Below are positions 52,015-56,942 of a stretch of 64,000 bases of DNA, piece by piece. The stretch lies in contig NZ_AUHG01000016.1 of NCBI RefSeq assembly GCF_000423065.1, forward strand, positions 124,001 through 188,000, read 5' to 3'. How positions within the stretch are numbered: position 1 is the first letter of the stretch; every line of letters begins with the position of its first letter. A program made the position numbers and the translations under genes. This DNA comes from Christiangramia echinicola DSM 19838. GTDB taxonomy: Bacteria; Bacteroidota; Bacteroidia; Flavobacteriales; Flavobacteriaceae. The notes under the pieces are model-generated. The model was not told the origin of the DNA. It did not search any database and saw only the letters and a program-made list of their open reading frames with translations.

Positions 52015-52833
52015 ATGACTTCAATTGATAAAACCAAGGTTTTAAGTAGAAATAATATTACCGTTCAGGGAAATGGAGAACAAGCTATATTATTCGTCCA
52101 CGGTTATGGTTGCGATCAAAATATGTGGAGATTTGTAATTCCTGATTTTCTGGAGGACTACAAAGTTATTCTTATGGATCATGTGGGAGCAGGAAATTCA
52201 GATGAATCCTACTATAGTAAACAGAAATATGGCAACCTGCAGGGCTATGCCGATGATATACTTGAAGTATGTAAGGTTTTGGATTTAAAAGAGTTGATAA
52301 TCGTAGGGCATTCAGTTAGCGCCATGATTGCATTATTGGCCGCCAATAAGGAACCGGAACTATTTAGCAACATAATCATGATTGGTCCATCACCATGTTA
52401 TGTCAATAAAAATGGATATCGAGGCGGGTTTAATCAGGAAGACATTGATGATTTATTAAATACATTAGATAAAAATTATTTAGGCTGGGCGGCGACTATG
52501 GCCCCTGCTATAATGGGAAATCCCGAAAGACCAGAATTAGGAGAAGAATTAAAGAATAGTTTTTGTCAATCTAACCCTGAAATTGCTAAGCACTTTGCAC
52601 AAGTTACTTTTCTATCAGACAATCGGGAAGATTTGCCAAAGCTTCACATACCTACTCTGATAATTCAATCCAAGGAGGATGTTATTGCACCATTAGAGGT
52701 GGCGCAATATGTTTATAATCAAATCCCGACCAGTACCTTAGAAGTTATTGATGCTACAGGTCATTGTCCAAACTTAAGTGCTCCTAAGCAAACTGTTAGA
52801 GCTATTAAACAATATCTGCAAGGACAGGAATAA
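52015..52833 (+). CDS. rsbQ: RsbQ-type alpha/beta hydrolase
   Basis: A 272-residue single-domain alpha/beta hydrolase closely resembling Bacillus RsbQ along its whole length: GYGCDQNMW, DHVGAGNSDESYYS, MIGPSPCYVN, NYLGWAA and ATGHCP. The triad is S100 (VGHSVS), D222 (KEDVIAP) and H250 (TGHCP). RsbQ activates the PAS phosphatase RsbP, probably by producing or presenting a small hydrophobic ligand; the plant karrikin/strigolactone receptors are of the same family. The stop is directly followed by the ATG of the PAS kinase gene, so the two form an evident functional pair. Confidence 0.93.
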   Translation: MTSIDKTKVLSRNNITVQGNGEQAILFVHGYGCDQNMWRFVIPDFLEDYKVILMDHVGAGNSDESYYSKQKYGNLQGYADDILEVCKVLDLKELIIVGHSVSAMIALLAANKEPELFSNIIMIGPSPCYVNKNGYRGGFNQEDIDDLLNTLDKNYLGWAATMAPAIMGNPERPELGEELKNSFCQSNPEIAKHFAQVTFLSDNREDLPKLHIPTLIIQSKEDVIAPLEVAQYVYNQIPTSTLEVIDATGHCPNLSAPKQTVRAIKQYLQGQE

Positions 52834-54849
52834 ATGAATAATAATAAAAAGCATAAAACAGTATTATTTGAATCTGCAGAAGAGTTATATCATGATGCTC
52901 CTTGTGGTTATGTTTCTTTTTCAAACGATGGGATCGTATATAATATTAATCAAACCCTGATAGAATGGCTGGGATATGAAAGAGAGGAGATTTTAGGAAA
53001 AAAGAAAATATTCGATTTTTTTAAAATGGGGGGGAGATTATATTTTGAAACTCATTTTTTTCCTTTAATCAGGATGCAGGGGTTTGCCAATGAAATCAAT
53101 TTCGAAATTCAAAAAAAAGATTAAACTTCTTTTGCAGCTCTTATAAATGTAAAAGAAATAAAGGGTTCTAATACTGAAGAAAATAGATACAGAGCTTCAG
53201 TTTTTGATATTTCAGATCGAACTAAATACGAACAGGAATTATTCAATGCGAAAATCAGGGCGGAAAAGAATGCCAAAGAGAAGGCTCAATTCCTTGCAAC
53301 CATTAGCCATGAAATTCGAACTCCCTTAAATGGAGTACTTGGAATTGGAAACCTTTTAGCCAAGACCCCTCTTAATTCAAAACAGAAAGAATATGTGGAT
53401 ATCCTGAAGTTATCTTCTCAGAATCTTTTAGGACTCGTAAATAATTTACTTGATCTAAGCAAACTGGAAGCACAATCTGTACTGATTGAAAAGAAACCCT
53501 TCGCTATTCGTACGTTAGTGAAAAGCATAACCCATACTTTTGAAATAAGATGCAAAGAAAAAGGTATTCAACTTTTAACCCAGGTTGATAGTAACATCCC
53601 TAATTATATTGTAGGAGATCCAATTAAACTTAATCAGGTTTTAACAAACCTCGTGGGAAATGCTATAAAATTTACCTGCGATGGTTTTGTAAAAGTATTT
53701 CTTGACCTTGAAACCTTTCATGAGAATCAGGTTGAACTTAAGTTTACCATACAGGATACGGGTATAGGTATTCCAAAAAATAAGGTTGCGAGTATCTTTG
53801 AAGAATTTGCACAGGCAGATAATCAGGTAAATGGTGAACCTAAAGGAACGGGCCTTGGTCTTAGTATTTCTCAGAAAATCTTACAATTACATGGGAGTGA
53901 AATTAAAGTAAAGAGTAAATTAGGCCATGGGTCGAAATTCTTTTTTACTATCAATTATGAGCGATATACAGGATCAAAACAAGTAAAAAAAGAGATCGAT
54001 ACAAATAAAAGGAAAAAGCAAAAACTTGCTCGATCCAAAATTTTAATAGTAGAAGATAATGCTATAAATATTTTTGTTATCTCGGAATATTTGAATGATT
54101 GGAAAATTAAATTTGATACCGCTAATAATGGACAACAGGCTATTGAAGCCGTAAAAGCAAATAATTATGATATAGTTCTAATGGATATTCATATGCCTGT
54201 TATTGATGGTTTTGAAGCTGCTTCTACCATTAGGAATCTAAATCTGGATAAACAGCCTGTAATTTTAGCATTATCGGCTACTAGTAGAGAGAATATTCAA
54301 TCTGAACTGGATCGTGCTGGAATTGATGATTTTATTAGTAAGCCTTTTGGGCCGGGAGATTTACATATGGTCATTTCAAATTATATTATAACGCAAGGCG
54401 AAAGAAAAAAGAATATTAAAAAATATGAGTCCATTAATGACGCCGATAATTTCAAAAATGATCTGGAATTTTCTCAAAAATCCTTTAACCTCACACGCCT
54501 GGTTAAGATGGCAAATAGTAAACCTGTATTTTTAAAAAAGTTTATTGGTAATACTTCAAAGGCTTTTGCAGATTATCTTGATGAGTTTCTACAAGCTGCA
54601 GAACTTACAGACAGTAAGCAGATTTCAGAGTTAATTCATAAAAGTACGATGTCCACTTATTTCATTCAATCAGATCGTCTCATTCAATTGCTTAAGGAAT
54701 GTCAAAGTTATTTCGATGATAAAAGCATTTCTGAAACAAAAATTAAATCTAAAATAGATGAAACTATTGCAGAGTTTAATAAGATAATAATGGGTTTAAG
54801 GGAAATCGATCCAAATGATTTGATTCCTAATGAACAAAGTAGGTCTTAA
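52834..54849 (+). pseudogene. PAS hybrid histidine kinase interrupted by one in-frame TAA
   Basis: The frame is continuous from 52834 to 54849 (671 codons) except for TAA at 53122-53124 (codon 97), inside the PAS domain (about 10-125). Beyond it come the phospho-acceptor H159 (TISHEIRTP), HATPase boxes (NLVGNAIKFT, DTGIGIP, GTGLGLSIS), a receiver with D451 (VLMDIHMP) and an Hpt-like end (ELIHKSTMSTYF). The next ATG (53395) would lose the H box. There is no frame change, only the stop. The gene is either recently inactivated, read through, or affected by a base error. It is the likely target of the RsbQ-type hydrolase encoded with zero spacing upstream. Confidence 0.85.
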
Positions 54850-54996: not shown

Positions 54997-55674
54997 ATGA
55001 AAATTCTAATCATAGAAGACGAGAAAGACATGCTTCAGAATATGCAGGATACCCTGGTAAAGCAGGGATATATCGTAGAATCGGCGAGCGATCTAGATTC
55101 TGCAATTTCAAAGGTAGGGGTTTATGATTATGATTGTATTCTGCTGGATATTAATCTTCCTGATGGCAGCGGAATGGATATTCTTGATTTTCTGAAGAAA
55201 AATGACAAGACCGAAGGAGTTATTATTGTTTCGGCAAGGAATTCTTTAGACGACCGCATCCGCGGCTTAAATACCGGTGCTGATGATTATATTGCCAAAC
55301 CTTTTCATATGGCTGAATTGAATGCCAGGGTAAAGGCCTTGCTAAGGAGAAAAAATTTTGAAGGCAGTGATCTACTCAAAATTGGCAACCTTTGTATAGA
55401 TTCTGAAAAGCATACTTCTGCAACCCAACATGGTGAAATGGAACTTAATCGTAAAGAGTTCGATATACTTACCTATCTCGCTACTAACCAGGATCGCCTG
55501 GTTAGTAAATCGGCACTGGCAGAACATGTATGGGGAGACCATATAGACCAGGCTGATAATTTTGAATTTATCTATTCTCAAATAAAAAATCTTCGTAAAA
55601 AACTCAAAGAAGTCAAAGCAGATATCGAAATTAAAGCAGTTTACGGAATTGGTTATAAATTGACTCTATCTTGA
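54997..55674 (+). CDS. OmpR/PhoB-family response regulator
   Basis: A 225-residue two-domain regulator. The receiver domain (1-118) has the acidic pair E7/D8 (IIEDE), phospho-acceptor D51 (LLDINLPDGSG) and the Lys in IAKPF. The C-terminal winged helix (about 130-225; ELNRKEFDILTYLATNQDRLVSK) is of the OmpR type. The stop overlaps the TTG start of the histidine kinase. It is preceded by the motif shared with the PepSY operon, suggesting autoregulation. Confidence 0.95.
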   Translation: MKILIIEDEKDMLQNMQDTLVKQGYIVESASDLDSAISKVGVYDYDCILLDINLPDGSGMDILDFLKKNDKTEGVIIVSARNSLDDRIRGLNTGADDYIAKPFHMAELNARVKALLRRKNFEGSDLLKIGNLCIDSEKHTSATQHGEMELNRKEFDILTYLATNQDRLVSKSALAEHVWGDHIDQADNFEFIYSQIKNLRKKLKEVKADIEIKAVYGIGYKLTLS

Positions 55675-56942
55675 AATTACTTAATTACACTTCCAGATAT
55701 TTCGCCTGGCTGCTATTTTTTGTGCTAACGGGCTGGGCCGTGATATTTTATTTCCAGATGCTGGACGAGATCTATGATAGCATGGATGATGGTCTGGAAA
55801 ACCAGAAGATGCTGGTAATAGATAATTTAAGAGACCTGGATTCCGTTCGTTTGAAATCAGACTTCAGGGATGGATATTATACCTTGAATAGTATTAGTGA
55901 GTATTCGGCAAAAGGCTTCAAGGATACTTATCGTGATACTCTCATGTACATGAAAAATGAAAAAGATTACGAGCCCGTTCGTTTGCTGGAAAGTGTATTT
56001 AAGAAAGATGAGAAGTACTATAAAGTGAAGGTGATTACCTCGATGGTAGAGGAAGATGACCTTATTGAGGATCTTCTTTTCTCAATTATCTGGTTATATG
56101 TTGGGTTGATCCTGAGTATCATTATTCTTAATAATCTGATCCTTAAAAAGGTTTGGAATCCTTTTTATAATCTAATCGATGATCTAGGAAATTTCAAAAT
56201 TGAAAGGGATTCAGAAATTCAATTACAGGAATCCAGGATCGAAGAATTCAATATGTTGAATGAGAATATAGAAAACCTCATAAACAAGTCTGTACGCAGC
56301 TATCGCAGCCAGAAGCAGTTTATTGAAAATGCATCACACGAGTTGCAAACACCCCTTGCTATTAGTATCAATAAGCTGGAGCTACTGCTGGAAGAGGATG
56401 ATTTGCAGGAACAGCAAGCCACCAGGATCGTTTCAGTTATCGAGAACCTGGAGCGACTTTCCAGGTTCAATCAGTCCTTATCCCTTCTTTCTAAAATTGA
56501 AAATAAGCAGTTCCCCGAGGTTGAAATAGTAGATATAAATCACTTAACGCATCGAATCCTAGAGAGTTTTGATGATTTCCTGCGGCATAAAAAAATCAAA
56601 ATAGAATTGAATGAAATAGAACAATTACAATTTTCGATCAATCCAGATCTGGCACAAATCCTACTTACGAACCTTATTAAGAACGCTATTATTCATAATT
56701 CTGATTCAGGCTCGATAGAAATTAGCATCAGTAATAATAAATGGGAGATCACTAATCCTGGAGAAATTGCCATCAAAGCAAAAGACCTGTTTTCAAGATT
56801 TCAAAGCGTTCAGGATAATTCGCAGTCTTCGGGCCTGGGACTGGCCATTTCCAAGGCTATTGCAGACGTCTATAACATTCATATTTCTTACAATTTCGAT
56901 AACAGGCACGTATTTAGTTTAAATTTCCCTCTTCACAACTAG
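55671..56942 (+). CDS. Sensor histidine kinase
   Basis: A 423-residue membrane kinase starting at TTG that overlaps the regulator's TGA (TTGA). Transmembrane helices are at about 11-28 and 138-158, with a small periplasmic domain of about 110 residues between. The HisKA motif is FIENASHELQTP (H223) and the ATPase has NLIKNAIIHN and SSGLGLAIS. The DxGxG loop is replaced by ITNPGE, a common variant in Bacteroidota kinases. It should phosphorylate the regulator encoded with it. Confidence 0.93.
   Translation: MKLLNYTSRYFAWLLFFVLTGWAVIFYFQMLDEIYDSMDDGLENQKMLVIDNLRDLDSVRLKSDFRDGYYTLNSISEYSAKGFKDTYRDTLMYMKNEKDYEPVRLLESVFKKDEKYYKVKVITSMVEEDDLIEDLLFSIIWLYVGLILSIIILNNLILKKVWNPFYNLIDDLGNFKIERDSEIQLQESRIEEFNMLNENIENLINKSVRSYRSQKQFIENASHELQTPLAISINKLELLLEEDDLQEQQATRIVSVIENLERLSRFNQSLSLLSKIENKQFPEVEIVDINHLTHRILESFDDFLRHKKIKIELNEIEQLQFSINPDLAQILLTNLIKNAIIHNSDSGSIEISISNNKWEITNPGEIAIKAKDLFSRFQSVQDNSQSSGLGLAISKAIADVYNIHISYNFDNRHVFSLNFPLHN

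Follow-up and report, generated by a model that had tools for sequence, protein, structure and literature searches.

The locus analysed here raises the question of what an RsbQ-type hydrolase does directly upstream of a hybrid histidine kinase frame, and whether the two can still work together. It lies in a window of 64,000 nucleotides from Christiangramia echinicola DSM 19838, a member of a genus formerly named Gramella. We consider it likely that the locus is a bipartite RsbQ-PAS sensing module, belonging to the hybrid-kinase class, whose relay is off in this genome as sequenced. Modules of this type have been published, and the window holds an interrupted copy.

An RsbQ homologue in front of an interrupted kinase frame

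The first gene of the pair (52015-52833, forward strand, as are all features below) encodes an alpha/beta hydrolase of 272 residues. Its closest solved structure is RsbQ from Bacillus subtilis (1wom), matched over residues 7-269 with an E-value of 3e-91, followed by Olei00960 (3qvm, 4e-75) and then by plant KAI2 proteins (2e-61 and weaker). The catalytic residues Ser100 (codon 52312-52314), Asp222 (52678-52680) and His250 (52762-52764) were unchanged in all 27 aligned homologues. Judged by its sequence, the window hydrolase is a true RsbQ homologue. At E <= 1e-40, its distribution is patchy, a point against the module reading: it was found in 11 of 24 Christiangramia genomes, in 5 of the 149 genomes sampled from the family and in 22 of the 395 from the phylum, its own genome being included each time. 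Plasmids can carry RsbQ-like hydrolases as well (E <= 1e-30): of 72,556 plasmid records 74 have one, the most frequent sources being Streptomyces (11), Rhizobium (8) and Phaeobacter (8).

The kinase frame follows the hydrolase stop immediately, at 52834, and is open to 54849 except for an in-frame TAA at 53122-53124. When the stop was read as X, Pfam detected a PAS_9 domain (frame residues 24-128, 52903-53217, E 5.6e-10), a HisKA dimerisation and phospho-acceptor domain (53281-53472, E 2.1e-19, His codon 53308-53310), a HATPase_c catalytic domain (53614-53958, E 5e-25) and a Response_reg receiver (54040-54375, E 3.8e-25, Asp codon 54184-54186), in this order. The TAA falls inside the PAS domain, and the open reading frame list accordingly holds an N-terminal fragment of 96 residues (52834-53124). 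No ATG, GTG or TTG is present between the TAA and the phospho-acceptor His codon; the first listed start after the TAA, the GTG at 53395, lies downstream of that codon, so that a product restarting there would lack the phospho-acceptor histidine. Because the stop precludes a full-length kinase, the hydrolase would be left without a working partner in the genome as sequenced.

These results bear differently on the preliminary description of the locus. Its likening of the hydrolase to RsbQ, with the S100-D222-H250 triad, was borne out, and so was the PAS-first frame immediately behind the hydrolase stop. The view that the output is something other than a SpoIIE phosphatase agrees with the genome-wide search, which returned no SpoIIE domain in this genome and matches in 5 of 14 control genomes. 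A partner-switching pathway was rejected on the same grounds; HATPase_c_2 gave two matches above and three below the cut-off in the genome. The reading of 52834-54849 as a single kinase gene had overlooked the TAA and does not hold for the genome as sequenced. Of the proposed kinase-receiver-Hpt output, the HisKA, HATPase_c and receiver parts are present, but the Hpt part is weak by sequence: the Pfam Hpt model had no match in the window at E-values up to 1, and the genome-wide Hpt search gave one match, below the cut-off and elsewhere in the genome, and none at this locus. The fold lends it some support, as seen in a structural model of the C-terminal region from the C. portivictoriae relative (pLDDT 86.7). 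In a Foldseek search with this model, the top 15 chains, which come from 9 entries, were all Hpt proteins, though the best E-value was 0.0068, with none at or below 0.001; the TM score to 7c1i was 0.72. Transferred to the window, the helical bundle spans 54490-54846, its start being approximate because it was taken from the relative's model. The Hpt-like histidine (codon 54637-54639) occurs in 11 of 13 aligned rows, the window included, and is missing in loci L080 and L087. As modelled, the kinase appears to end in a degenerate Hpt-like domain, and a phosphorelay running through it is plausible. A Peptidase_S46 match at the kinase C-terminus (E 4e-4 and 6e-5) was put down to chance.

Pairing of the hydrolase with PAS proteins in relatives

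All ten of the other Christiangramia genomes with the hydrolase carry an uninterrupted kinase of 660-673 residues, located -1 to +5 nt from it; among them is the sister of our strain (L006/L038), whose hydrolase is 90% identical. Across 36 loci from the genus, family and phylum samples, a PAS-first kinase-type protein adjoins the hydrolase in 32, as counted by eye from the translations and with a Pfam scan for part of the loci. Loci L063 and L070 have no PAS-first neighbour, L072 ends at a contig edge, and L073 (41% identity), which lies beside a different hybrid kinase, was left out of the 32. A second set consists of the best 80 of 583 relatives, kept from a pattern scan of named genomes, and overlaps with the first in at least five assemblies. 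In 74 of these 80, an RsbP-like PAS, detected with a profile built from the 32 PAS-first loci, starts -34 to +158 nt from the hydrolase stop. A histidine-kinase profile, likewise built from the 32, matched 54 of the 74 PAS pairs, including L106 (E 2e-3), which Pfam identifies as a phosphatase. Of L106 and the 20 pairs lacking a kinase match, a Pfam scan covered 13, and it detected SpoIIE in every one of them; L091, one of the 20, is cut by a contig end. No cyclase motif was seen among the 74 PAS-paired loci. Taken together, the 32/36 and 74/80 pairings rule out chance adjacency of the hydrolase and the PAS protein and confirm the expectation that the module is conserved in relatives. Distances between hydrolases and between PAS domains were correlated (r 0.66, n = 74; maximum of 0.17 in 1000 shuffles), as joint inheritance predicts, though shared ancestry alone could also give such a correlation.

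In B. subtilis RsbP, the L48A, F55A, Y59A and E72A mutations are null, with F55A and Y59A abolishing signalling and reducing the interaction with RsbQ (PMC3183031). In the same work, RsbQ and RsbP failed to bind as purified proteins in the absence of cell extract (PMC3183031). At the positions inferred to correspond to RsbP F55, Y59, P62 and E72, the window PAS has Tyr70, His74, Pro77 and Glu87; the putative register is anchored on the conserved proline (RsbP P62) and is off by one near C10. In an alignment of 107 rows, one of them the window, the four columns hold Phe 53, Tyr 51 and His 3 times; His 98 times; Pro 103 times; and Glu 97 times. Two features count against the module reading. The position that would match RsbP P86 is Ala in the window and Pro in most rows, and the window PAS ends in the DIT-like motif DIS (53206-53214), with DIT or DIS found in 28 of the 107 rows. 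A DIT-like PAS end is also present in many partners from the same genus and phylum.

The preliminary description had suggested modelling the hydrolase-PAS complex. An AlphaFold (AF2) monomer model of the tethered hydrolase and PAS from the intact C. portivictoriae pair reached a pLDDT of 91.8 and a pTM of 0.65, with helix 400-422 leaving the PAS domain. By our estimate, a rigid domain of 272 residues joined to an unrelated one of about 140 would reach roughly this pTM, so the model supports no confident interface, and the score neither favours nor excludes a contact. The eLife 2025 paper (PMC12143880) predicts a 2+2 RsbP-RsbQ complex in which RsbQ sits between the PAS domains and linkers, an arrangement that a monomer model cannot reproduce.

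For relatives with an intact kinase, we suggest that the hydrolase most likely acts by binding a small molecule, perhaps turning it over as well, and that it may contact the PAS domain of the dimeric kinase through the F-alpha helix. This contact would change the activity of the kinase, in one direction or the other. Phosphate would then pass from the histidine to the aspartate of the receiver, possibly on to the Hpt-like domain, and finally to a response regulator that is presumably encoded elsewhere.

On the same strand, 147 bases past the kinase frame, two genes at 54997-56942 encode a response regulator of the OmpR type and a sensor kinase. This position would suit an output of the module, but tblastn with both genes (E <= 1e-20) matched nothing in any of the 36 related loci, each 8-12.5 kb long except for L047 and L072 (3-4 kb), and the pair resembles a self-contained two-component system. 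We therefore rejected the pair as the output, a role we regard as extremely improbable. The related loci show no conserved gene for a cognate regulator next to the hydrolase-kinase pair, a further point against the module reading. Scarcely more credible is the proposal that we are dealing with an ordinary metabolic esterase whose gene happens to adjoin that of a kinase. Its top NCBIfam models are indeed enol-lactonase and BioH, but all 25 listed matches are far under their cut-offs, whereas RsbQ is by far the top solved match, the signalling partner is PAS-first across many phyla, and the published RsbQP genetics (PMC3183031) likewise speak against a purely metabolic role.

A separate matter is how the stop itself is to be read. 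That it is a sequencing or assembly error, leaving the module intact, is a possibility to be taken seriously, though we think it the less probable case. It is a lone stop in a well conserved and otherwise open frame, the TAA comes after a run of A, and the kinase is intact in all same-genus homologues. In a comparison of the window, the sister and one outgroup, in which the numbers are small, the stretch past the stop collected 37 silent changes against 29 replacing ones on the window's branch, and 40 against 36 on the sister's, with 50 ambiguous. Constraint after the stop is thus not visibly relaxed, and with no surplus of replacing changes the loss would have to be recent, or the stop an error. 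Against an error stand the quality of the assembly (3.5 Mb, 18 contigs, 99.85% complete) and the reading frame, which is the same on both sides of the stop, unlike in the usual homopolymer error. The unrelaxed sequence would also suit fragments that remain active, with the 96-residue PAS piece binding the hydrolase or with a rare non-standard start or readthrough yielding some kinase; near-cognate ATT, ATC and ATA codons do occur in the stretch that separates the stop from the His codon. We find this improbable, given that the standard start codons are missing from that stretch and that the PAS domain loses its final portion to the stop. An interrupted RsbQ-PAS module, with its relay off, remains the reading we prefer.

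A possible second partner class in Hymenobacteraceae

Among the best 80 relatives, the six lacking an RsbP-like PAS all belong to Adhaeribacter or Pontibacter. Five of them have a protein of about 134 residues downstream (in L090, the listed start covers a part of 97 residues only), and L095 has none. Such loci, in which an RsbQ is combined with a SpoIIAA-like small protein, include L083 (5377-5778), L088 (5359-5760), L104 (5242-5655) and L148 (5327-5767), with further examples in 27 of the loci L168-L197 and in L258-L287. The assignment to SpoIIAA-like is weak: of four proteins scanned, three matched at 0.09-0.15 and one had no family. A solved-structure search gave nothing convincing, its two matches having E-values of 0.41 and 0.45. 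The family numbers 3-9 copies per genome in the seven genomes searched, and among eight paralogues scanned, one scored above the SpoIIAA-like cut-off (26.6 bits), two below it (24.6 and 21.6) and five had no match.

An RsbQ homologue at E <= 1e-60 was present in 164 of 200 Hymenobacteraceae genomes. In 30 loci fetched as the best copy from the best genomes, the small protein adjoins 27 hydrolases and a PAS protein 3, with none having both. In 60 lower-scoring places picked from the list, a PAS was found at 40 (weak in L217), the small protein at none and neither partner at 20. The contrast of 27/30 with 0/60 ties the small protein to one branch of RsbQ rather than to the whole family. When the small protein served as the query against these 200 genomes (E <= 1e-50), 47 places in 47 genomes were returned, five of them seeds of the profile and 42 new. 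In all 47, the gene directly follows an RsbQ on the same strand, 55-106 bases on. Two genomes, those of L080 and L093, contain a PAS pair at one site and a small-protein pair at another.

In a quick tree covering 121 hydrolases, 31 partners of the small protein group with L155 in one branch (SH-aLRT 97); from the 80-locus set this tree took one locus in three and eight selected ones besides, and sequences with X or shorter than 230 residues were dropped. The small-protein branch lies beside one PAS-paired row (95) and is nested inside the PAS-paired hydrolases. The triad is unchanged in all 121 rows. Pro188 is found in 68 of 68 PAS-paired rows of the tree vs 16% of the small-protein rows, and is a candidate partner contact; L021 and L022, PAS-paired homologues outside the tree, lack it. 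Two Adhaeribacter RsbQ copies, at L155 (569-2088) and L157 (2383-3823), are followed by other proteins of about 145 residues, 281 and 217 bases on, which have no significant Pfam match. A separate branch comprises 20 Hymenobacteraceae homologues with neither a PAS nor the ~134-residue protein adjoining: L095, L156 (near a contig end), L200, L205-L207, L210, L211, L219, L220, L225, L226, L231, L246, L248, L250, L251, L253, L255 and L257.

From its position, the small protein would be functionally linked to the hydrolase. We lean towards a picture in which RsbQ hydrolases are exchangeable ligand-receptor subunits, and in which a Hymenobacteraceae clade swapped the PAS domain for a STAS-like switch protein while keeping the active site. 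Our searches of open-licence papers yielded no description of an RsbQ-SpoIIAA-like (STAS) pairing. If the swap is true, a hydrolase acting on a STAS-like switch protein would add a new kind of RsbQ signalling to the kinases, phosphatases and cyclases that work through PAS, and comparing PAS-paired with SpoIIAA-like-paired hydrolases would separate residues for the ligand from those for the partner contact. It is this partner swap that most merits further work, the window module itself being of a published kind.

Relation to known systems

The preliminary description had seen a rewired sensing module in the coupling to a kinase, yet such coupling is not new: RsbQ-PAS modules with histidine or hybrid kinases were published in 2011, when Nadezhdin, Brody and Price described 45 RsbQ-PAS pairs with a PPM phosphatase as output in Gram positives, a histidine or hybrid kinase in Gram negatives and a cyclase in both (PMC3183031). 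Three of their kinases have a C-terminal receiver, and one pair, from Mesorhizobium, is split from its kinase by a frame shift that is possibly an error (PMC3183031). In the main text of that paper, figure labels apart, 'bacteroidetes' and 'flavobacter' do not occur (PMC3183031). The window shares with these modules, as described there, an RsbQ homologue with the full triad directly upstream, a PAS as the first domain of the partner (with the frame read through the stop as X), a histidine kinase and receiver as output, and the F-alpha signature (PMC3183031). It differs in the stop that interrupts the kinase, in an Hpt-like end, for which no mention was found in the text of that paper, and in a PAS ending in DIS, whereas the paper gives no DIT motif at the PAS end for its set (PMC3183031). 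PAS and output domains are joined in one protein in all ten same-genus homologues, but in the window the TAA at 53122 cuts the output domains off from the start of the PAS; the locus is thus an interrupted copy descended from RsbQ-PAS modules. As of 2011, neither the RsbQ substrate nor the signal sensed by the module was known (PMC3183031), and the ligand of plant KAI2 is also unidentified (PMC10504578).

A flavobacterial hydrolase with a kinase readout could serve as an assay for the ligand, and the natural interruption, set against the sister species with its intact pair, provides a contrast. RsbQ-RsbP of B. subtilis has the same hydrolase and PAS halves as the window locus but a PPM phosphatase in place of the kinase, and the present genome has no SpoIIE-domain phosphatase. 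The proposed kinship with the karrikin and strigolactone receptors KAI2 and D14 holds by sequence: the hydrolase belongs to the same subfamily (KAI2, E 2e-61), with the same Ser and His in the alignment. As homology is what supports it, perception of karrikins or strigolactones remains a lead. The partner, too, sets the systems apart, being a PAS kinase in the window and an F-box protein for KAI2 and D14 in plants.
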